Source of the DNA: a virus
IMG/VR virus record: IMGVR_UViG_3300010885_005673
Coordinates: 1 to 23,454 of that record
Length of the DNA: 23,454 nt
Strand: one strand, 5' to 3'
Part shown: in pieces, positions 1,936 through 13,969 of the stretch
Numbering within the stretch: the stretch's first letter is position 1
Layout: each line of letters starts with the position of its first letter
Translations under genes and position numbers: made by a program
The notes under the pieces: model-generated
What the model saw: only the letters and a program-made list of their open reading frames with translations
Databases searched by the model: none
Told to the model about the DNA's origin: nothing

Positions 1936-4900
1936 TTACCATGCCGTTTTAACATAATTCTCAGCCATCGACAATGTAAAACTAGAACCTCCCGAAGTGC
2001 TAGTATATTGAAGAGTTAAGTAAATATTTGTATCACTTCCTACGAAAGAATTTAGATTAAAAGTAACACCAACATCATCCGTCTCACTGCTTTCGTCGTC
2101 TATATTGAATGTATTCCCAGCAGGATTATATGCTATAAACAGTGTTCCAGTTCTGGTAGCAGATCCTCTTTTAATAACATATTGTATATGTTGATTAAAC
2201 CCGTTATCATTTATTAGATATGTTACACCTGTATTTGCATTTGTTTGAGCAGGATTCAATGTATACAGTTCACCACCCTGTTGTGAAAATAATCCAATTC
2301 TGAGATCGATTCCACCAAACCAAGCACTTGTGTTTTGATTTCCACTGACCCACGGAAAAGCAATTGTTTCATTTTCTTGTCTGTCAAATTGATCATTGAT
2401 ACTAGTACACCCAATACTCTGAGTACCAAAATCAATGACAACTGCAACAGCATTTCCTATTCCTAGATAATTGTTAGCAACATCTCTGTAACTATTAAAA
2501 GTGCTAGTAATATTTGTGGCAAAGTTAGTATCGATGGCTTTAAAAGCAATCAAATCAAACACACAATTGCTAACGGTCATGGTATTAACCATGCCATCAT
2601 TCTTATTCATCTGTATTCCGCTGTAGAGATTAATGAAAGAAGTACTATTGATTACAATATTTCTACTATACTCTGTATCCGGCTGTAGTAACCCATAATT
2701 GAATTGTTCGATATAGCAATCAATGATATTGATATCGGTTGGGGTAGCCAGCGAAGAACCCAATACATATACTCCACACCATTCATTTCCTGCAGAAGAT
2801 GGTAAAGACTGTGTGCCCGACATTCTAACTCTTTCAAGTGTTAATCTACTTGAATTCGTTAACCATACACCATCGCCAACTGCATTAAGACCGATGTCCC
2901 TAACTAAAATACTGCTTGGTAATGTCGCACCATTGTATCCAATCTGGCTTTCAACTTGTTGCTTACTGTCAGCAGTAATCATGACATAACTAACAACAGC
3001 AGGATCTGCTGTCTGTTGAATTACAGTATTATTATTTCCTTCTCCAATTAGTATTGCATCAGTTGGAACTTTGATACCATCACTAACAATATAATTTCCA
3101 GCAGGAAAATAGAGTGCTTTTCTAGCAGATGCATTTGCACTTCTACAATACAATTCATAGAGTGCTCTGTTGATAGATTCAGTATCGTCTGTCAAACCAT
3201 CGCCTTTAGCACCAAAATCTTTAACACTTACAAACTCATCGAGTTTATGCTGTAATGTTCTGACTGTTGAACTACTGCCATAAACATAACTAATTCCATT
3301 CCAGTTAACGCCGTCGATGCTACGAAGAATCAAACCTTTATTTCCAACTGCGAGAAATTCTTGATATCCAACAATGCAATCTAATATATCAGCGGTGTTA
3401 AGACTACTAAGTGTGAAGTTTCTTTGAGTCTGACTGTAGAAATTTTGTCCATCTAAACTAGTCAATATGGTATCATATTGCCCAACGATAACATAATAGT
3501 TAAAAGCATAACTACTATTATAAAGAGTAGGACCATTATATCCTGTGCTAGTATTATATAGAATATTCAGCGATTGGCTAGTTAAAGTTCCCGAATCTAA
3601 TATGTGCGATCCATAAACACTAGTGTACCCAATACTACCAATAACCCAAAATGTGTTATTTAGATAGTAAACATTCCATAGATGAGAAACTGTTGGGAAA
3701 TCGAGTTGAGTCCATGTCAGCGAATCATTGCTGTAAACAACTGTTCCATTATTACCAACTGCCACATAACCGTAAAAAGAATTTGAATTATAAGTCCATG
3801 TACAATAATTCACTGCATGTAGATCTTCAGATGATGGATTAGTTTGGCTAGTCCAATTTAATCCCGAATTATTACTGACTAAAATAACACCGTTGGTACC
3901 TACTGTTACTGCTTGATAAGTACCGCCGTCGAGGTCGACGATCGCAATACTTTCTAAGTCGTTTGTTTCACCAGACACTCTCGAGGTCCATGTTGTTCCA
4001 TTGGTGCTTGTCAAAATTTTGCCGTGAGAACCAACTGCAATGTAAGTTGTGGTACTCCACAACGCAACTCCATAAAGATTATATGTAGTTCCACTGTTTT
4101 GACTGGTCCAAGAATATCCAAGTGGACTTGTTAGAATAGTACCATGTTCTCCAACAACAACATATCTATGAACCACAGTGTTAAAAGTAACGCTATAAAG
4201 ATCATATGCTACTCCGCTGGTCTGCACGAGCCAGTTTACACCGTCTTCACTGACAATGATGGTCCCGTTGGCGCCAACTGCTACAAACAATCCACCAGCA
4301 AATGTAACATCATACAGATTTTGTGTAGTAGGACTTGCAACCATAACGAGAGATACATCTGAAGTCTTATATATGACTCCGCCATCTCCGACAAAAATAG
4401 TTATTCCAGATGCTGTAGACTTTGCTGATGCTCTAAAAGTATCTGTATATCCATATCCCCAATTGATACCATCAATACTTATTAATACTATGCTAGTATC
4501 GCCCGCTGCAATCCATTGATCATGACTGTATTTTACAGATCTTAGATTATAACTAGTTGGAACACTCTGAATTGTCCAAACTGTTGAATTTGTACTGGTA
4601 ATAATAGTACCGCTGTCGCCCACTGCGACTAATAAATTATCATTATAACCAATGGATGTTAGTTTAGTAGATATTCCACTTGTTGCACTGGTCCACGCAT
4701 TGCTATCAACGCTGATAATAATTTCACCGGTGTCACTGACTGCAACATAATTGTTGATTGTGCCGGATGCAAAAGTTATTGAATTTAAGTTGATTAATAT
4801 TCTATTAGTTGACTTTGTCCAAGTTATCCCGTCACTGCTGTTAATGATAGTTCCATTAGCACCAACAGCAACAAACAAGCCATTACCAAAACAAATGTCA

Positions 4901-5289
4901 TTGAGGTTATCTGTTGTGTTTGCGTAAACAGGGGACCATGTAATACTATCGGTGCTGGTTAAAACTGCGCCACTATTTCCAACTGCAACATATAAACTAA
5001 TACCATTATAAGCAACTGCATTGAATTTTGTAGTTCTTCCACCAGTGGTAGGACTATATCCGGCATCTTCATTGACATAAGAATATGTCTTAGCAAGATT
5101 TAAAACATCACTATATTCAGTTAATATTTCAGTATTGCCTAGTCTCGGGGCACCTTCTGCTGTGGTACCGTTACCAATATAGAGTTTTTGTTGGTCAATA
5201 CTCCAGCCTAATTCTGCACTTGCTAAACTTGGCAAGTCCTGTTGCAAACCTCTGCGATGCTGGATTCTTGAGATGCTTACTATAGCCAT
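1936..5289 (-). CDS. Tail fibre / tailspike: double beta-propeller plus pectate-lyase-type beta-helix (1117 aa)
   Basis: Probable receptor-binding or surface-degrading virion protein. Residues 1-50 (VSISRIQHRRGLQQDLPSL, then LGWSIDQQKLYIGNG) match the N-terminal attachment domain shared by many phage fibres, which starts with an RRG motif and ends with a YIGNG turn. Residues about 90-665 hold 14 repeats of roughly 40 residues with the core V-A-V-G-x-x-G-x-I-x-x-S-x-D-G-x-x-W, as in Ycf48/BNR-type beta-propellers; fourteen blades would make two seven-bladed propellers. Residues 688-705 (SVKDFGAKGDGLTDDTESI) open a pectate-lyase superfamily parallel beta-helix running to about 970. The last 150 residues are a separate, less recognisable domain. 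Start ATG; the ribosome-binding region lies in an inverted repeat at 5296-5322. Whether the helix is enzymatic cannot be told from sequence alone. Confidence 0.92.
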   Translation of the reverse strand: MAIVSISRIQHRRGLQQDLPSLASAELGWSIDQQKLYIGNGTTAEGAPRLGNTEILTEYSDVLNLAKTYSYVNEDAGYSPTTGGRTTKFNAVAYNGISLYVAVGNSGAVLTSTDSITWSPVYANTTDNLNDICFGNGLFVAVGANGTIINSSDGITWTKSTNRILINLNSITFASGTINNYVAVSDTGEIIISVDSNAWTSATSGISTKLTSIGYNDNLLVAVGDSGTIITSTNSTVWTIQSVPTSYNLRSVKYSHDQWIAAGDTSIVLISIDGINWGYGYTDTFRASAKSTASGITIFVGDGGVIYKTSDVSLVMVASPTTQNLYDVTFAGGLFVAVGANGTIIVSEDGVNWLVQTSGVAYDLYSVTFNTVVHRYVVVGEHGTILTSPLGYSWTSQNSGTTYNLYGVALWSTTTYIAVGSHGKILTSTNGTTWTSRVSGETNDLESIAIVDLDGGTYQAVTVGTNGVILVSNNSGLNWTSQTNPSSEDLHAVNYCTWTYNSNSFYGYVAVGNNGTVVYSNDSLTWTQLDFPTVSHLWNVYYLNNTFWVIGSIGYTSVYGSHILDSGTLTSQSLNILYNTSTGYNGPTLYNSSYAFNYYVIVGQYDTILTSLDGQNFYSQTQRNFTLSSLNTADILDCIVGYQEFLAVGNKGLILRSIDGVNWNGISYVYGSSSTVRTLQHKLDEFVSVKDFGAKGDGLTDDTESINRALYELYCRSANASARKALYFPAGNYIVSDGIKVPTDAILIGEGNNNTVIQQTADPAVVSYVMITADSKQQVESQIGYNGATLPSSILVRDIGLNAVGDGVWLTNSSRLTLERVRMSGTQSLPSSAGNEWCGVYVLGSSLATPTDINIIDCYIEQFNYGLLQPDTEYSRNIVINSTSFINLYSGIQMNKNDGMVNTMTVSNCVFDLIAFKAIDTNFATNITSTFNSYRDVANNYLGIGNAVAVVIDFGTQSIGCTSINDQFDRQENETIAFPWVSGNQNTSAWFGGIDLRIGLFSQQGGELYTLNPAQTNANTGVTYLINDNGFNQHIQYVIKRGSATRTGTLFIAYNPAGNTFNIDDESSETDDVGVTFNLNSFVGSDTNIYLTLQYTSTSGGSSFTLSMAENYVKTAW

Positions 5290-5295
5290 TTATTA

Positions 5296-5322
5296 ATCTC
5301 ACTTTCATATATTTAGTGAGAT
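5296..5322 (-). promoter_or_regulatory. Inverted repeat over the fibre ribosome-binding region
   Basis: An 8-bp perfect inverted repeat (ATCTCACT and AGTGAGAT) flanks an 11-base AT-rich loop. It overlaps the stop codon of the nuclease gene and ends 6 bases before the fibre ATG. In the minus-strand RNA the only purine-rich Shine-Dalgarno-like stretch, AGTGAG, lies in the downstream arm, so folding would hide it. There is no T-tract after the stem, so it is not a standard terminator. A translational control role is inferred. Confidence 0.4.
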
Positions 5323-6011
5323 AAGATATTAGAATAGTATTCCCAAACCTTATCAAACCACTTGTGTTCGTATTCGGTAAGATCAACTACCCAATGCTGT
5401 GGTTCAACATCTTTGCTACACATTAGGATGACACCTTGCTTAATATCAGTGCCATGTACAACATTATGAGCAGCGGCATACGCAGCAGCTTGGAGGAAAT
5501 AGTCCTGAACCCATTCCGTCTTCTTAGGCTTATTAGTTTGCTTAAAGTCAATAATACTGGGTACGCCATCATAGACGCCAACAAGATCAGTTGTGCCCGC
5601 ATATAACTCAGGATAATAGAGCCCAACTTCACTTCCCCACCATTCATCGAGCGAAGGACTTAAGTATTCCTCAATGATCCTTGTTGCCATCTTAGCACTG
5701 TGTTGATGTACAAGGTTACTCTTATTCTCAATTTCACCGAATGCAAGCCAATGTTCTAAATGGCTATGCATACTTGTTCCTCTGCTAGCTGCTTCAGTTG
5801 TAATCGCTTGTGCCTGTGCGTGACCTATTCGATTACGCCATTCGTTAAGTGCTTTCTTTGTTTCTTCTGACTTTGTCTTGTCAAGAATAGTAGTTACACT
5901 CGCAATAGCACGACCATCTGGTGTGACGTACTTGCGTCCTTCGCTTGTTTGTTTTCGATTGATCGGGGTGTAATTAAATTGTTCTCGAAATCTTACCAGT
6001 TTATCTGCCAA
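5313..6011 (-). CDS. PD-(D/E)XK-family nuclease, Cas4/RecB-like exonuclease (232 aa)
   Basis: A metal-dependent DNA exonuclease or endonuclease is predicted. The PD-(D/E)XK core is visible: Asp142 in AGTTDLVGVYDG, then IIDFKQTN with Asp155 and Lys157, followed by the helix motif YFLQAAAYA with Gln174, the order seen in RecB/Cas4-type nucleases. The upstream RGTSMHSHLEHWL helix (residues 77-89) fits the conserved histidine region. The only plausible start in frame is TTG, 7 bases after a GGTGAA; the frame overlaps the upstream gene by 19 bases, suggesting coupling. Such nucleases in T4-like phages are thought to act in recombination, DNA repair or host DNA breakdown; the exact role here is unknown. 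Confidence 0.85.
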   Translation of the reverse strand: MADKLVRFREQFNYTPINRKQTSEGRKYVTPDGRAIASVTTILDKTKSEETKKALNEWRNRIGHAQAQAITTEAASRGTSMHSHLEHWLAFGEIENKSNLVHQHSAKMATRIIEEYLSPSLDEWWGSEVGLYYPELYAGTTDLVGVYDGVPSIIDFKQTNKPKKTEWVQDYFLQAAAYAAAHNVVHGTDIKQGVILMCSKDVEPQHWVVDLTEYEHKWFDKVWEYYSNILSH

Positions 6012-6331
6012 TATAAGTTCACCATGTTTGTGCTTTTACGATTTATAGTATAGCCTAGTTTGGTGAAATAGTCAATAACTTTATTCATTTCGATGGTCTG
6101 TAATGTACCGATGGCTAATTTCTGCCAGACATTGTAATATACAGAATTATTTGTTATGGGCGATCCGGTTACATTAACCCCATTGACAGAAGTTACCGTA
6201 GCATTATTAAGTACAACACTAGTATACCCACCATCTTTAGCAGTCAATATTCTAACATATAGAAGATATATTTCTGTTTCTACAGTTAAATCACTCTGAA
6301 TCTGTGCTCGTAGGTCGCTTGCTGATAACAT
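5993..6331 (-). CDS. Conserved small phage protein of unknown function (112 aa)
   Basis: No functional family recognised. The N-terminal helix (MLSASDLRAQIQSDLTVE) is followed by a beta-rich middle with a TSVVLNNATVTSVNGVNV repeat-like hairpin, then a helical segment and an aromatic C terminus. There are no cysteines and no membrane segment. Its 3' end overlaps the nuclease gene by 19 bases, and the upstream gene ends 6 bases before its ATG. The gene looks real because of its tight packing and unbroken frame in this string of minus-strand genes. Confidence 0.75.
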   Translation of the reverse strand: MLSASDLRAQIQSDLTVETEIYLLYVRILTAKDGGYTSVVLNNATVTSVNGVNVTGSPITNNSVYYNVWQKLAIGTLQTIEMNKVIDYFTKLGYTINRKSTNMVNLYWQINW

Positions 6332-6337
6332 GACATT

Positions 6338-7312
6338 TTATCCGTTTTTATTATTTAACTCTTCTTGCTCACGCTTTTTCTTAACTTCAGCCCAATATTC
6401 ATCGTCATGCTTTTTGTAAATCGGTGCCCACTTCTCACGCATTGCATCAACATATTGATTACTGTTGGATATACCCATCTGTTTGAAGATTTTTAGCAAT
6501 TTAATTAATCCTGGATCGGCTTTGGCTTTGACATTATGGATGTCGGCACTTAATCCATTATAAGCATCTCTTGTGCTGTATAGAACTTTATCAATCACAC
6601 GCTTTGCTTCTTTGCTTAACTTGGGCTTCTCTTTAGCAAAGTATATCTCACGCCAACCTTTAAGGTAATCAGTTGGCTGTCTAGCAGGCCATGGTTTATC
6701 AAGCATGGGATCTTTCTGTGCTATGTTAGCAATGAAAGCACTGTTCACTGGAATTGCCTTGCGTGTATCCTGTAATAAAAATGCTGCTTCATCTTCATAA
6801 ACATAATGCGGTATACCCATCTGTTTTACACGGGTCAATAATAGACGCATCCACTGATTACGTCTCATATCATCATCGGGTTTGAATAGTATATGTACTG
6901 CTTTGATTAATTCTTTTGGATCTTTGGGAAGTGAAATAAAGGGTTCATCACTGAACACACGATCTTCCATTTCACTGTAACGACCTTTTAATCCCACTTC
7001 ACTTGTTTTAAATCCATTACCGCCCCAATAATCAACTGGGCCGCCTTTGTAATTGTAATTAAACCAATCACCATTTAGAACAAATACAACACCATCTTTA
7101 TGGAAATTGTGTAGTGTATAATCACCAACTTTACTGCGTGTTGTGCTTAGGTAATATTGTTTATTTCCGCGCTGTAATTTACGTTCTGCATCAGTACCAG
7201 GGCTTGCTGTAAGCCTAAAACGGCCATCATTCAGAATCTGAGCAGCATTATATAAACGTGTGGAATGATACACGATGGACGATACTGATTCAAATAAGTC
7301 AGTTAATAGCAT
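6338..7312 (-). CDS. Putative ADP-ribosyltransferase-like protein with capsid-targeting-like N terminus (324 aa)
   Basis: The N-terminal half resembles the ADP-ribosyltransferase fold of the H-Y-E type. YHST at residues 15-18 gives the NAD-binding histidine, followed by an AAQIL helix; YLSTTRS at 54-60 gives the aromatic plus Ser/Thr motif; SEMEDRVFS at 113-121 gives a candidate catalytic glutamate (114 or 116). The C-terminal 130 residues are helical and very charged. Residues 1-9 (MLLTDLFES) look like the capsid-targeting peptide of T4 Alt and internal proteins and contain an L-F-E site like that of T4 prohead protease (L-x-E). This suggests an injected enzyme that modifies host proteins. 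Weak points: this class of motif is short and degenerate, and the true fold must be tested by structure prediction. The gene itself is secure. Confidence 0.6.
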   Translation of the reverse strand: MLLTDLFESVSSIVYHSTRLYNAAQILNDGRFRLTASPGTDAERKLQRGNKQYYLSTTRSKVGDYTLHNFHKDGVVFVLNGDWFNYNYKGGPVDYWGGNGFKTSEVGLKGRYSEMEDRVFSDEPFISLPKDPKELIKAVHILFKPDDDMRRNQWMRLLLTRVKQMGIPHYVYEDEAAFLLQDTRKAIPVNSAFIANIAQKDPMLDKPWPARQPTDYLKGWREIYFAKEKPKLSKEAKRVIDKVLYSTRDAYNGLSADIHNVKAKADPGLIKLLKIFKQMGISNSNQYVDAMREKWAPIYKKHDDEYWAEVKKKREQEELNNKNG

Positions 7313-7322
7313 TTAATATTTA

Positions 7323-7682
7323 TTAAGAAGCGGGTTGTGCAACAGGCTGCTGAATATTATTTTGCGCAGCAGTTTGTGCCATTTGATCTACTGTGTCTTC
7401 GCCGCCTTCTTGATCGCCAGTCATATCATCATCTGTTTTACCAATGGTAATGGTATCTTGATTAAAATTACCTACCAAGTTTTGCAGATCAGGATTAGCA
7501 TCATACATTTTTTTAAAGTCATCATATGTCATGCCGTATCCAACATTTCTCATTAAATTAGATACGGCACTTATAGGAACCTGTGATCCTTTGCCAAGTT
7601 TAGATTGCAAATGTTGGAGGATGGTCATTAATGTGCCATTTTGTCCCATTACAAAATTAGGAGCAATCTCCAACAGTTTCAT
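7323..7682 (-). CDS. Conserved small virion-region protein (119 aa)
   Basis: Function unknown. The central segment (GYGMTYDDFKKMYDANPDL, then QNLVGNFNQDTITIG) is helical and looks like a short conserved fold; the last 35 residues are acidic and Gln-rich with low complexity (DDDMTGDQEGGEDTVDQMAQ). The N terminus MKLLEIAPN resembles the short targeting peptides of its neighbours and holds an L-L-E site. It starts 1 base after the stop of the 317-residue gene and ends 10 bases before the ART-like gene, so all three share a transcript. A head-associated protein is the likeliest guess. Confidence 0.75.
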   Translation of the reverse strand: MKLLEIAPNFVMGQNGTLMTILQHLQSKLGKGSQVPISAVSNLMRNVGYGMTYDDFKKMYDANPDLQNLVGNFNQDTITIGKTDDDMTGDQEGGEDTVDQMAQTAAQNNIQQPVAQPAS

Positions 7683-7683
7683 A

Positions 7684-8637
7684 TTATGCTCTCTTACCGC
7701 GGCCTAACTCTGCTGTTCCGCCAGCAGCAGCATCGCTAGTAGCCATGTCGTCTGCACGAGGAATTTCAACGCCGGAGTCTGTTCCTGCATCGGGAACAGG
7801 GGTTTCTGCACCCATCATATCTGCACCTGCATCAGCACCTAAATCTGCACCAGGGGCGGCGCCTGCGCCAATGTCAGCACCGGCTCCTGTAGCCATCGGA
7901 GCAGGCGCTTCACCTGCAACAGTACGAGCAGCACCATCCATTCCTTCTCTTGCAGCCTTAACAGCATCAAGCAGAGGAGTCAATGTCTGTGTTGCAGCAG
8001 CACCGAAAGCGGAAGCCTGATCAGCGCCAACACGATCGCGAATTGTATCCATCAATGGGGGAAGTTCTTCGTTAACCATAGCACTGATCTTTTCCACCAT
8101 CTTCTGTATCTCATCTACCATGCCACGAGCAGCAACAATTGCTGAAGCCTGATCAACTTCACCTTCATTTAGTTGAGTACGACCTAATAGTACACCTCGA
8201 AGAAGATCTAATGCTTCTTCAACTGATTTTTTCTTTGCCATCTTAGTAGCAGTGGCATACATAACATCCTTACCACGCTTGCCATAACGCTTGTCAAAAT
8301 CACCTTCAACTTTCTTCATGCTCTTGACATACTTCTCACGCTTCTTAGTCTCACCAGGTGATAGTGTACGTTCTGCAAGCATTTCACGACGCTCGTCTAA
8401 CCATGTTTCAAGGACCTGACTTACAAGCAATGCTTCCATGTACTGTGGATTACGCTCTGCATGATGTGCAAGACTGCTGTTCTTAATATTTCTAATCTTA
8501 TTTGAAACCTTATTAAGAGTTGAATGAGCATCTGACTCAGACAAATTTCTTAGATTTAGATTCCATTTATAAACACTTTTAAGTTGTACATTCAAGTCTT
8601 GACTTGTAATACGTTTGCCAAATTCATTGACGATCAT
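7684..8637 (-). CDS. Conserved T4-like phage protein, helical with Ala/Gly-rich acidic tail (317 aa)
   Basis: Residues 1-135 form a strongly conserved-looking, basic, helical region with the signature DFDKRYGKRGKDVMYATATK (about 113-132), which I recall from many aquatic T4-like phages, where it has no assigned function. Residues 160-230 are helical with heptad-like spacing. Residues 235-317 are a low-complexity Ala/Gly/Asp tail (GAGADIGAGAAPGADLGADA) ending in basic GRGKRA. Start ATG has a good ribosome-binding site (CGAGGAT, spacing 6) and an upstream NATAAATA late promoter at 8658-8665. A scaffold or internal head protein is plausible; this is inference from promoter class and neighbours. 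Confidence 0.85.
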   Translation of the reverse strand: MIVNEFGKRITSQDLNVQLKSVYKWNLNLRNLSESDAHSTLNKVSNKIRNIKNSSLAHHAERNPQYMEALLVSQVLETWLDERREMLAERTLSPGETKKREKYVKSMKKVEGDFDKRYGKRGKDVMYATATKMAKKKSVEEALDLLRGVLLGRTQLNEGEVDQASAIVAARGMVDEIQKMVEKISAMVNEELPPLMDTIRDRVGADQASAFGAAATQTLTPLLDAVKAAREGMDGAARTVAGEAPAPMATGAGADIGAGAAPGADLGADAGADMMGAETPVPDAGTDSGVEIPRADDMATSDAAAGGTAELGRGKRA

Positions 8638-10346: not shown

Positions 10347-11114
10347 TTACCTAACTGGAGTACCTAAATCAGACAACAAATTTGTCAAAAGTTTCTGTTT
10401 TTCTTTCTTAGATAGTCCATCAACAGATTGCTTTACAACATCAAATGTAACTGGTGCTGCTGCCGGTGCTCCGCCCGGCGCTGCTGGTGCTGCTGGTGCT
10501 CCACCTGGTGCTGGCTTAGTTCTTTTAGGTACTGGCGCTGCTGGTGCTGCTGGTGCTCCACCTGGTGCTGGCTTAGTTCTTTTAGGTACTGGCGCTGCTG
10601 GTGCTGCTGGTGCTGCTGGTGCTCCACCTGGTGCTGGCTTAGTTCTTTTAGGTACTGGCGCTGCTGGTGCTGCTGGTGCTCCACCTGGTGCTCCACCTTG
10701 TGCTGGTGCTGCTGGTGCCGATCCTGCCGGTACTCTAACTCTAGGTTTAGGAGCGCCCGGTGCAGGTGCTGCTGGTGCAGGTGCTGCTGGTGCTCCGCCT
10801 GGTGCTGCTGGTGCTCCGCCTGGTGCTGTCTTAGTTCTTTTAGGTACCGGTGCTGCTGGCGCAGGTGCTCCGCCTTTTGCTGCTGCTCTGCTATTACGCT
10901 TACGAATAGCATTGGGTGTATTGCTAGTTTGGCCTGCTACTTTTCCGCCTGTCTTTTTATTCGCAGTAGCAACTATATTCCCTGGAGTCATCCCAAGTTC
11001 TGCTGCTTTGCGCTTAATATAATCTTCTTTTCCGCTTTTATAAGCAGCCTTAATATCGTCCCAAAAGCCTTCATCTAAAGACTGTTCATTTAAAATTATA
11101 TCACTGATCTTCAT
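10347..11114 (-). CDS. Lys/Ala/Pro-rich repeat protein, candidate internal head protein (255 aa)
   Basis: Residues 1-60 are a helical, charged head. The first residues ([20 protein letters not shown]) look like a capsid-targeting peptide with an L-N-E cleavage-like site at 8-10. Residues about 61-225 are a low-complexity tract built of repeats of the type [19 protein letters not shown], giving evenly spaced Lys-Arg-Thr-Lys clusters in an Ala/Pro/Gly linker, which recalls linker-histone or AlgP-like tails. Residues 226-255 form a compact helical end ([18 protein letters not shown]). Such a protein could bind packaged DNA inside the head; this is inference. The gene overlaps its upstream neighbour by 14 bases. 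A NATAAATA element lies 54 bases before the ATG. Confidence 0.82.
10513..10692. repeat. Tandem 57/66-bp coding repeats
   Basis: Three near-identical direct units start at 10513, 10570 and 10636. Each begins GGCTTAGTTCTTTTAGGTAC on the plus strand. Units one and three are 57 bp; the second is 66 bp by one extra GCTGCTGGT triplet set. A diverged fourth copy of the anchor lies at about 10828. The lengths are multiples of three, so the repeats change the length of the encoded Ala/Pro/Lys protein without frameshift. Confidence 0.9.
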
Positions 11115-11352
11115 TACGAATCCTTCTGAGACCTCTAATAAATTTGTTAGGATCTTTATTTCTAATACTATTTATTAGTCTACGTTCTAACTCAGAAGCA
11201 TCGTCGCCATCGTAGGATTCGTTTATCATTCTAAGTAAATTAATTGCTGAGTTAATGATATGAGTTGCCCTGCTCTCAATCACAAAATCTTTATCGTGAT
11301 GTGGGACAATGTTACTAATTTCATCTAATATACTACGAGTAGTTTTGCGCAA
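11101..11352 (-). CDS. Conserved small helical protein (83 aa)
   Basis: All-helical, charged and cysteine-free. RSILDEISNIVPHHDKDFVI, then ESRATHIINSAINLLRMI, and ELERRLINSIRNKDPNKFIR look like conserved blocks of a small protein I recall from aquatic T4-like phages, with no known function. The frame is open from a TTG at 11358, but that codon directly touches the GAGGA ribosome-binding site; the TTG at 11352 lies 7 bases after GAGG and is the better start. A late promoter element sits at 11369-11376. The 3' end overlaps the repeat-protein gene by 14 bases, so the two are probably made together. Confidence 0.75.
   Translation of the reverse strand: MRKTTRSILDEISNIVPHHDKDFVIESRATHIINSAINLLRMINESYDGDDASELERRLINSIRNKDPNKFIRGLRRIRNEDQ
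11169..11176 (-). promoter_or_regulatory. Possible internal late promoter element AATAAATA
   Basis: AATAAATA on the minus strand lies inside the 83-residue gene, 54 bases before the ATG of the Ala/Pro/Lys repeat protein. It could give the repeat protein its own late transcript. Being inside a coding region, it is less certain than the intergenic copies. Confidence 0.45.
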
Positions 11353-11368
11353 AATCAATCCTCAAAAT

Positions 11369-11376
11369 TATTTATT
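11369..11376 (-). promoter_or_regulatory. Late promoter element AATAAATA
   Basis: AATAAATA on the minus strand in the gap after the helicase gene, 16 bases before the preferred TTG start of the 83-residue gene. Expected transcription would begin close to the GAGG ribosome-binding site. It separates a late, virion-type block from the replication helicase upstream. Confidence 0.7.
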
Positions 11377-11397
11377 GAAAAACATGTCATATAGAAA

Positions 11398-12783
11398 TTA
11401 ACTCGTAGTTTTGATTTGCGATAACATCTGCTTTAATTTACTGCTTTCGACATTAGCAGTAATCTTAGGTTCTTGTCTTTCTGCTGGTCTTACCACTGGA
11501 TTAGAACGTATCTGTTCCATAATACTGCTGGGCCTCTTAGAAATGCCGCTATCCTCTTCAGTAGCATCCATGATTCGCAATGTATCAACATCAAATTGAA
11601 GTTCGACTTTTTGTCCGACACCACTACTACTGCGTGTCTTCATACACTGTAATTGATATCTACCATGCTCGCGCATTGCACGACTCGTAAAGATACCAAA
11701 CAGGTTATCTGCTGTATTAATCTTACTGATACCGCCACTGATATGACTGTGATCAAATTCGATCTCTTCAACTGCACTGCGATTCAACTGACTGGCTGTC
11801 ACTAACAACATCTGTAATTCTTTAGCAAGATTGCGAACTTCTTCTGCAACATACTTGTCCTTGACGAACAGATCGCTGGGACTTACTTTAGCACTAACTG
11901 GCATCAGTAGATCCATATAATCTAACATAACAAAGTCTAATTTCTTACCAGTCTTAATCTGTAGTTCTTTAAGATAAGCACGAATATCATTTACGTTGCT
12001 CTGTGCAGGCATATACTTGATCTGTAAGTTTCCTGCTTTCTTCCCGACCATACGAATCTTCATGTCCACAGTATCGATTTCTTTGAAGATATCCTTGCTG
12101 CTAATGTTTGCAAGCATACTATCGATGCGCATACTAGTCAGTTCTTCGCTGAGTTCTAGTGTTATATAAACACCGTTAAGTCCTAATAGCATCCAATTCA
12201 CAGCAATGTTCTGCATAAACAAACTCTTACCACTGCCGGATCCGCCAGCAAAGATATTAAGTTCACCTCTGTTAAATCCGCCATATAACAGTTTATCCAG
12301 CGTAGTCCAACCAGTACTGACCTGTCCGTTATTATCTTTAATCTTCATAAGACGTGCCCTGGGATCAGCAAAATAATCCGTTCCCATGTCTTTGGTAAGA
12401 CTAATCTGCACTGCGTCTTTAATCAATTTCTCAACTGGATCATACTCACCTTTTTCTAGCAAGTCTGCTGCTTTTAGAATTGCACGTTCGAGTTCTTTCT
12501 GTCTGGTAAAGCCTTCGAACTCATCAAGGAACCAATTATAGTGATCTTCATTGAGTCCAGGAGCTGGTTGCAGATCACTCTTACATACTGCATTGATCTG
12601 CTCGAACGTAGGCATTGTATTATGCTTTTCGCAATGCGATTTAATAAAGTCTGCAGGCGCTTTCAAACTACGATCAAAGTTTTCTACATTATAGATGTTT
12701 TGAACTCTGACAAAACTCTGAGGATCTTGCATCATCATCTCGAGAAATAACTTCTGGATGCCTGTATCGTACGATGTTGTCAT
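11398..12783 (-). CDS. 41: Replicative DNA helicase, DnaB/T4 gp41 type (461 aa)
   Basis: Hexameric 5'-3' helicase that unwinds DNA at the replication fork with the primase. The RecA-like core is clear: Walker A GGSGSGKS at residues 180-187, the catalytic glutamate in TLELSEEL (about 210), Walker B LDFVMLDYMDLL with Asp288, TASQLNRSAVEE (sensor/DNA-contact region), and the C-terminal MKTRSSSGVG arginine block. Residues 1-100 are the helical N-terminal domain. An upstream GTG at 12798 would add five residues; the ATG at 12783 is preferred because a TATAAT box sits 6 bases before it. A plus-strand radical SAM gene starts divergently just beyond, separating this gene from the primase. Confidence 0.95.
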   Translation of the reverse strand: MTTSYDTGIQKLFLEMMMQDPQSFVRVQNIYNVENFDRSLKAPADFIKSHCEKHNTMPTFEQINAVCKSDLQPAPGLNEDHYNWFLDEFEGFTRQKELERAILKAADLLEKGEYDPVEKLIKDAVQISLTKDMGTDYFADPRARLMKIKDNNGQVSTGWTTLDKLLYGGFNRGELNIFAGGSGSGKSLFMQNIAVNWMLLGLNGVYITLELSEELTSMRIDSMLANISSKDIFKEIDTVDMKIRMVGKKAGNLQIKYMPAQSNVNDIRAYLKELQIKTGKKLDFVMLDYMDLLMPVSAKVSPSDLFVKDKYVAEEVRNLAKELQMLLVTASQLNRSAVEEIEFDHSHISGGISKINTADNLFGIFTSRAMREHGRYQLQCMKTRSSSGVGQKVELQFDVDTLRIMDATEEDSGISKRPSSIMEQIRSNPVVRPAERQEPKITANVESSKLKQMLSQIKTTS

Positions 12784-12789
12784 GCTCTT

Positions 12790-12795
12790 ATTATA
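12790..12795 (-). promoter_or_regulatory. TATAAT -10-like box directly before the helicase start
   Basis: TATAAT on the minus strand, 6 bases (AAGAGC) before the ATG of the helicase gene. A host sigma-70-type -10 here would put the start site at or next to the start codon. No recognisable -35 was identified. Confidence 0.4.
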
Positions 12796-12838
12796 CACTT
12801 ATCTTGCATTTAATGTCATTATATATTACTATATTTTT

Positions 12839-13969
12839 ATGACTTATAAGTACCACATGCTAAGAACAGTCGAGCCTGCAATCGATCCCGCTAATAAAAT
12901 TAGTTTTCTACTAGATTGGGAGATTACACTACGCTGTAATTTGGATTGTAGTTATTGCGGTCCAGAATGGCATGATAATAAATTAAGACACCCCCCACTC
13001 GAAGAATGTTTAAAAACTATAGACTTTATGTTTGAGTATGTCAACATCTATATGCAGAACAAACCAAAATGGGCAAGAGAAGTAATTCTAAATGTCTATG
13101 GGGGAGAAAGTATATTCCACCCTGACATTATAAATGTATACGAAGCAATCAGAGAAAAATATGAAAAGTTTAAAGATGATTGGGTACTAACTATACAAAC
13201 CACTACCAACTTGGTTGCTGGTAAAACACTTATTAATAAGTTAAAAGATCTAATAGATTATTGGACAGTGAGTTATCACAGCGAAGCAAGTCCAAAACAA
13301 AAATCACAAGTCAGACAAAACATCCTTACACTCATTTCAAACAAGAAAAGAGTTAAAGTCATTGTATTGATGAATCCTACTAGGTTTGATGATTCTATCC
13401 AAATGATCGATTTCTGTAAAGAAAATAATATTGAATTCTTGCCAAGACAATTAGACAGGGTCAATGACACTCACATGTATTCTCCCCAACAGATAAATTG
13501 GTTCAATGACTTATATAATAAAAAATCCTTTAATACTGAAGAAATTAAAATTAATAGCAATCACGATGTTAATTTAACTAATGTTGGTAGGGCATGTTGC
13601 GGCGGACGACAAATATGCACAGATGGTAATTTTAAGGAACGTAACTTTTTTATCAAAAATAACTTTACCAACTGGAGTTGTAGTGTTAATTGGTTCTTCC
13701 TCTATATCAGACAGACTTCCAGAGAAGTTTTTCATAACAAAGACTGTCGAATGAAGTTTGATGGAACAGTTGGTCCAATTGGCACAGTAGATCAGGCAGA
13801 TTTAATTTTAGAGAATCTAAGAGATATGATGGGAAAAGATATGCCTGTTATTACCTGTGCTAAGAAATCTTGCTTCTGTGGACTATGTGCTCCAAAAGCA
13901 GACAACAGAGATTCATTTGATAAAATCTTTAAGAAGTATGTTAGTTATCAAGCCAACGCTTCATCATGA
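12839..13969 (+). CDS. Radical SAM protein with C-terminal cysteine-rich (SPASM-like) region (376 aa)
   Basis: The CX3CX2C motif of radical SAM enzymes is present as RCNLDCSYC (Cys33, Cys37, Cys40), followed by a YGGES motif (88-90), so it should bind a 4Fe-4S cluster and S-adenosylmethionine. The C-terminal third has many cysteines (253, 254, 260, 281, 303, 340, 345, 347, 350), ending in CAKKSCFCGLCAPKA, which suggests one or two extra iron-sulphur clusters as in SPASM/twitch proteins. Substrate unknown. The frame is open from 12758, but that extension would run antisense into the helicase 5' end; ATG 12839 or 12857 is more likely, and neither has a Shine-Dalgarno. The 3' end overlaps the primase gene tail-to-tail by 29 bases. 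Confidence 0.85.
   Translation: MTYKYHMLRTVEPAIDPANKISFLLDWEITLRCNLDCSYCGPEWHDNKLRHPPLEECLKTIDFMFEYVNIYMQNKPKWAREVILNVYGGESIFHPDIINVYEAIREKYEKFKDDWVLTIQTTTNLVAGKTLINKLKDLIDYWTVSYHSEASPKQKSQVRQNILTLISNKKRVKVIVLMNPTRFDDSIQMIDFCKENNIEFLPRQLDRVNDTHMYSPQQINWFNDLYNKKSFNTEEIKINSNHDVNLTNVGRACCGGRQICTDGNFKERNFFIKNNFTNWSCSVNWFFLYIRQTSREVFHNKDCRMKFDGTVGPIGTVDQADLILENLRDMMGKDMPVITCAKKSCFCGLCAPKADNRDSFDKIFKKYVSYQANASS

Follow-up and report, generated by a model that had tools for sequence, protein, structure and literature searches.

Is the enzyme apparently encoded at positions 6338-7312 of the viral record IMGVR_UViG_3300010885_005673 made for use in the infected cell, or is it packed into the phage head and injected into the next host? 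The whole of this 23,454-base record is the window analyzed here. A first-pass annotation had proposed injection, having recognized in the product the motifs YHST, YLSTTRS and SEMED, spaced as in an H-Y-E ADP-ribosyltransferase (ART), together with an N terminus recalling that of T4 Alt. We arrive at a related account, to which we assign a probability of roughly 0.6: that the product is a DarT-like mono-ADP-ribosyltransferase, packaged by means of its leader, cut by the head protease, injected, and directed at a host macromolecule. The features on which the argument draws are as follows.

6338..7312, minus strand: gene for a predicted DarT-like ADP-ribosyltransferase of 324 amino acids (aa)
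7286..7312, minus strand: leader MLLTDLFES, residues 1-9, a candidate capsid-targeting propeptide with a predicted cut after L-F-E8
6743..7285, minus strand: ART catalytic domain, residues 10-190, from the domain model, the DarT matches and the short Vibrio relatives
6341..6742, minus strand: C-terminal helical region, residues 191-324, variable and missing from the Vibrio relatives
7265..7267, minus strand: H16 codon, first ART motif (beta-1 YH), invariant in 24/24 sequences and aligned with DarT1 LFHFT
7145..7147, minus strand: S56 codon, second ART motif (L-S-x-x-R), invariant in 24/24
7136..7138, minus strand: R59 codon, invariant in 24/24
6965..6973, minus strand: E114-x-E116 codons, catalytic glutamate motif, present in each relative covering the site
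6959..6961, minus strand: R118 codon, present in each relative covering the site

A conserved and unannotated putative enzyme family of large phages

The reading frame is open on the minus strand, and its product has the N terminus MLLTDLFESVSSIVYHST. Close relatives in IMG/VR retain the product at 82-89% identity, and in comparisons with them synonymous changes far outnumber non-synonymous ones (ratio of the respective rates, dN/dS, 0.075-0.10); on these two grounds 6338-7312 is a functional protein-coding gene, and a genuine one under purifying selection. Searches of phage genomes with tblastn recovered relatives from 37 records, 25-33% identical and in every case hypothetical or unannotated, among them Salicola phage SCTP-2, an uncultured 484-kb phage, Alishewanella phages Slicko01 and Slickus01, Dickeya phages JA11, JA13, JA29 and JA33, Vibrio phage K566 and its kin, Pseudomonas phages Lu11 and HRDY3, Rhizobium phages and Salmonella phage Sen-NF. 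The enzyme family, as delimited by these searches, is thus an unannotated one of large and jumbo phages. Paralogs stand in tandem in several of them: five in Slickus01, four in Slicko01, three in Lu11 and two in the Dickeya phages. A bacterial and archaeal genome collection scanned with the close group of the window protein yielded no members, so that at this sensitivity the family looks phage-borne; IMG/VR scans with the SCTP-2 and Vibrio members as queries returned no relatives. By sequence, the family found no match in Pfam, PHROGs or the PDB save a weak one of a single member to Tox-ART-HYD1 (E 0.016), neither the window protein nor any of 18 family members matched ART-PolyVal (PF18760), and PADLOC gave a single weak match.

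The catalytic residues were assessed in a domain alignment of 24 diverse family members, whose identity to the window protein is mostly 25-34%. M1, H16, S56 and R59 are invariant, and E114, E116 and R118 occur in all sequences that cover them; the six residues other than M1 remain invariant or nearly so down to 22-25% identity (18-24 relatives). Since they are kept in such distant relatives, the three motifs that had been quoted, which do lie in the protein at residues 15-18, 54-60 and 113-117, are not there by chance. The three-part ART signature (H/R - Y/S - E) is recovered as H16, S56 and the E114-x-E116 pair, and the family signature H - L-S-x-x-R - E-x-E-[DE]-R is, at the level of sequence, of ART type. 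The label H-Y-E used in the first-pass annotation is loose: the invariant residues of the second motif are S56 and R59, preceded only by a non-invariant aromatic (Y/F). The glutamate of SEMED is conserved, with the correction that it sits in an E-x-E pair. In the Vibrio relatives (193-197 aa) the protein consists of the leader and the ART domain alone. We also weighed the alternative that the product has an ART fold but is catalytically inactive, being structural or degenerate; that 24 diverged sequences retain the H, S, R, E-x-E and R almost completely, and that dN/dS is about 0.1, make this very unlikely.

A predicted fold closest to DarT

Two AlphaFold models were built, one of the full-length protein (18 sequences; predicted local distance difference test score, pLDDT, 72; predicted template modelling score, pTM, 0.57) and one of the domain only (20 sequences; pLDDT 80.2; pTM 0.80). 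In both of these predicted models strands and helices alternate as expected for an ART sheet. Against the PDB, Foldseek placed DarT entries (DarT2 7OMW/7YK3, DarT1 8BAQ) at ranks 1-7 for the full-length model (best E 6e-4) and at ranks 1-6 for the domain model (best E 2e-4), with a probability of 1.00, and no protein other than DarT reached E < 0.01 with either. The structure prediction and Foldseek search proposed with the first-pass annotation thus left its ART assignment standing, the ART split sheet not being missing from the model and the sole confident PDB matches being DarT. Independently of the fold models, the family sequence profile searched against all PDB sequences gave DarT1 as its lone match below E=10 (E 0.47), over the YH/LFHFT motif. 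A 503-aa uncultured-phage protein in BFVD, A0A6J5LK92, annotated 'ASCH domain containing', was also matched by the model at 32% identity, which suggests a fusion of a DarT-like ART with an ASCH domain.

The likeness to DarT extends to the motifs. Both share the LFHFT/YHxT beta-1 motif, and the window family shares a serine at the second motif position with DarT1, in which serine takes the place of the H-Y-E tyrosine of DarT2 (PMC11543638). At the catalytic glutamate DarT1 and DarT2 have Q-x-E (PMC11281641), whereas the window family has E-x-E. The window protein differs from DarT in its low identity (10-13%), in a variable ARTT loop, in being phage-borne with a leader, in having no antitoxin partner seen in the relatives of the window, and in falling outside PF14487, the hidden Markov model of DarT, which matched nothing in 6 phage records and none of 18 family members. 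It differs also from T4 Alt, an R-S-E enzyme of 682 aa, in having H in place of R, and the family profile matched nothing in T4, so that catalytic-domain homology with Alt was not detected; the expectation of a lineage other than that of Alt proved right. The models support the assignment of the 6338-7312 product as an ADP-ribosyltransferase, and the enzyme is best described, on the same predicted basis, as DarT-like, outside the DarT Pfam family and not Alt-like.

DarT as sole confident structural neighbour also bears on the target. A refinement of the injection account, rather than a full alternative to it, would have the enzyme modify host DNA or RNA and so stop replication or transcription. 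Genes for NADAR domains, whose family strips ADP-ribose from guanine in DarT1 systems (PMC11543638), were observed in Lu11 (JQ768459, 232033-232440) and HRDY3 (PQ015379, 27210-27599), both of which carry DarT-like enzymes elsewhere in the genome. Their presence is thin evidence, though it fits a nucleic-acid target, a possibility that DarT kinship raises. Against it, DarT2 recognizes its base through a long ARTT loop with His119 (PMC11281641), whereas the loop in the window family, of low model confidence, varies greatly in length, being very short in the Dickeya members and longer in the window protein; moreover, no NADAR or Macro (DarG) gene was found in the relatives of the window, which are contig fragments. 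We regard this refinement as conceivable but somewhat unlikely.

Leaders shared by unrelated proteins

The N terminus of Alt that the first-pass annotation had quoted, MELITELFDED, agrees with the T4 record, in which alt.-1 begins MELITELFDG and ipII/ipIII begin MKTYQEFIAEA. In the window lineage the enzyme has the leader MLLTDLFES, MLVNELFES or MFLTDLFES, and the leaders of non-homologous proteins there are similar to it but not identical. As nine residues alone are weak evidence, we examined whether leaders are shared among unrelated proteins. In Slicko01, eight consecutive genes (85888-91558) and one nearby start with variants of MKIDxLYESLLEE (LYES-type), and this set comprises four members of the DarT-like family, one ART-PolyVal match (E 2e-11) and four other bodies. 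Ten genes of Lu11, located at 156-170 kb, start with MKI[QM]LA[VLIT]A or MRIQLAVA; three are family members and one is a weak ART-PolyVal match (1.6e-4), while the others include proteins of 627 and 887 residues. A genome-wide profile scan placed the top non-family proteins overwhelmingly within the same gene clusters, and with leaders removed the bodies of family and other leader-bearing proteins in these two sets had no similarity. One leader on non-homologous proteins of a single phage is therefore found in both Slicko01 and Lu11. The Slicko01 gene at 85888-86523 (10889-11524 of locus L010) encodes a protein that combines the leader with a stretch resembling kinases, VAFLVTYQGRKTVIKVALNAKG, and is assigned to PHROG 4301 without known role; it is a candidate injected effector.

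Within the Lu11 set, 83% of pairwise comparisons of leader residues show the identical amino acid, and 61% of those identical residues are specified by different codons, which indicates selection on the leader peptide and led us to reject a recent tandem DNA duplication as the origin of the shared leaders there; the test is weaker in Slicko01, where codon bias is strong. The notion that the leader simply prolongs the first strand is disfavoured as well, since unrelated proteins have the leader in common. In Vibrio phage K566 the enzyme has the leader MKKFNEFANELAEA, and a small protein of the same phage begins MKTLQEFLAEA, close to that of T4 ipII/ipIII.

An [LI]xE site of the kind cut by the T4 head protease occurs in 12/12 leaders of the five lineages with T4-like leaders, over a background of 15-22% of genes in those phages for which it was counted, and is missing from the Lu11-type and Dickeya-type N termini. 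By analogy with the T4-type rule, cleavage of the window protein is predicted at LFE8/S9, in agreement with the processed form starting at Ser9 that the first-pass annotation proposed. The parallel is with T4 ipII and ipIII, where a short N-terminal leader on unrelated cargo ends in such a site; here, in contrast, each phage lineage has its own leader, that of Lu11 (MKIQLAVA) lacks the glutamate, and the cargo includes ADP-ribosyltransferases. The suggestion of a delivery signal is strengthened by the leaders common to non-homologous proteins within phages, by [LI]xE in five lineages, and by similar leaders on virion proteins of phage PA5oct, described below.

These leader data also bear on the reading in which an active DarT-like ART is made late in the infected cell and acts, unpackaged, on molecules of host or phage in the same infection, its N terminus being the first helix of the domain. 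T4 ModA and ModB are established examples of non-packaged phage ARTs (PMC9503650), and leaderless members of the family in the Dickeya phages and Sen-NF keep all the catalytic residues. A domain helix, unlike this leader, would not be common to unrelated proteins in one phage, nor does it account for peptide-level constraint on the leader of Lu11, and we consider the unpackaged enzyme unlikely.

Virion-protein homologs around the gene

The nearest isolates to the window are the jumbo phage PA5oct and its kin. Gene order in the window block follows that of PA5oct gp262-gp242, with homologs of gp262, gp260, gp259, gp247, gp245, gp244, gp243 and gp242 in that order, and the ART gene sits between the counterparts of gp247 and gp245. 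According to the annotation of the PA5oct record, gp262, gp258, gp257, gp254-249, gp247-245 and gp243 were detected by mass spectrometry (ESI-MS/MS). Two proteins so detected, gp246 (MKIKDILVES) and gp333 (MKINDIITE), carry a leader of the same type, and gp333 is located between the portal and the head maturation protease. The neighbouring features are these.

7323..7682, minus strand: adjacent upstream neighbour, 119 aa, starting MKLLEIAP, resembling PA5oct gp247 only weakly (E 0.015)
7684..8637, minus strand: homolog of PA5oct virion protein gp247 (ESI-MS/MS)
5993..6331, minus strand: homolog of PA5oct virion protein gp245 (ESI-MS/MS)
5313..6011, minus strand: exonuclease, homolog of PA5oct gp244
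10347..11114, minus strand: Pro/Ala-rich protein with tandem repeats and a leader-like N terminus, a pattern as in PA5oct gp333 and gp246

Relatives of the 10347-11114 protein keep its leader (MKINDIVLNE, MKTSDIILNE). Such surroundings speak against a cargo gene for the toxin of a module serving toxin-antitoxin or superinfection-exclusion functions. DarT itself is the toxin of a toxin-antitoxin system. Antitoxin partners are described for some phage ARTs (PMC9503650); with neighbours that are virion-protein homologs, tandem copies of up to five, and neither DarG (Macro) nor NADAR in the relatives of the window, such a module is highly improbable. Elsewhere in the window, 1936-5289 (minus strand) encodes a 1117-aa tail protein in which the N-terminal domain of Major tropism determinant (PF18454) and a pectate-lyase-like domain (PF12708) are combined with many beta-propeller-like repeats of the form VAVGxxGTIxxSxDGxxW. 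Two genes, at 12758-13969 (plus strand) and 17688-18764 (minus strand), are of radical-SAM/SPASM type.

Proposed delivery and action

The leader of T4 is enough by itself to get foreign proteins packaged, and Alt, once injected, modifies the RNA polymerase of the host (PMC9026906). By the injection account, the window enzyme would be made late and carried into the prohead core by its leader MLLTDLFE, where a T4-type head protease would clip it after E8. It would remain in the head with the DNA, enter the next host at injection and, early in infection, use NAD+ to ADP-ribosylate a macromolecule of the host, which may be a protein (as for Alt) or a nucleic acid (as for DarT). Several targets are suggested by the multiplication of paralogs and by the variation in the ARTT region.

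Head packaging and injection of the window enzyme are likely, but several observations weigh against this account. A likeness to Alt over nine residues means little on its own, and the leader pattern of the window lineage was picked after inspection of the data. T4-leader-like starts number 5 against 0.45 expected in a 67-kb relative of the window, a count that includes the ART gene itself; as they are not enriched in K566, Slicko01 or Lu11, we do not use this pattern as general evidence. The Dickeya and Sen-NF members begin at the YH motif in the domain alignment; the leader is thus not universal in the family, and delivery may differ in these phages, in which two tandem leaderless copies (L009 11992-13754; L016 5131-6816) lie beside a DNA ligase gene and, in Dickeya, not far from prohead protease and capsid genes. 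PA5oct has no family member, so that its mass-spectrometry data are not direct for the ART protein. Finally, the TM-scores of the domain model against DarT are moderate (0.43-0.49), and the ARTT region (residues 96-113) is modelled at low confidence.

A wider proposition, in which phage-specific address tags mark sets of injected effectors and deliver several DarT-like enzymes against host nucleic acid, turning anti-phage chemistry on the host at injection, seems to us rather doubtful.

Relation to known systems and significance

Head-packaged ARTs were predicted to be widespread in myoviruses by Iyer and co-workers on the evidence of genomic neighbourhoods and MuF fusions, and DarT-related ARTs were noted in insect viruses, in passages of PMC9503650 that mention neither the phages examined here nor shared leaders; the family may be in its supplements. 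ARTs encoded by jumbo phages were also known (PMC7824862). With T4 Alt the window enzyme shares a similar leader, the status of ART cargo and occurrence in phages with T4-like head biology. With ART-PolyVal and the polyvalent proteins it shares a predicted injected ART, and ART-PolyVal matches bear the shared leader in Slicko01 and Lu11; that is another ART family, however, and the effectors here are separate genes with their own leaders rather than domains of a giant multidomain protein. Head-packaged phage ADP-ribosyltransferases were thus already predicted, and what appears to be new, relative to those passages, is the family of the window protein, together with the DarT-like fold predicted for it and the sets of cargo proteins that share a leader.

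The injected proteins of large phages are mostly unidentified, because their genes lack annotation. In distantly related phages, a short leader, conserved as a peptide despite codon drift, tags groups of unrelated proteins, ADP-ribosyltransferases among them. If this account is true, reading leaders would list injected effectors straight from genomes, and the DarT-type ADP-ribosyltransferase, so far familiar chiefly as a toxin that bacteria use against phages, would also be a phage weapon.
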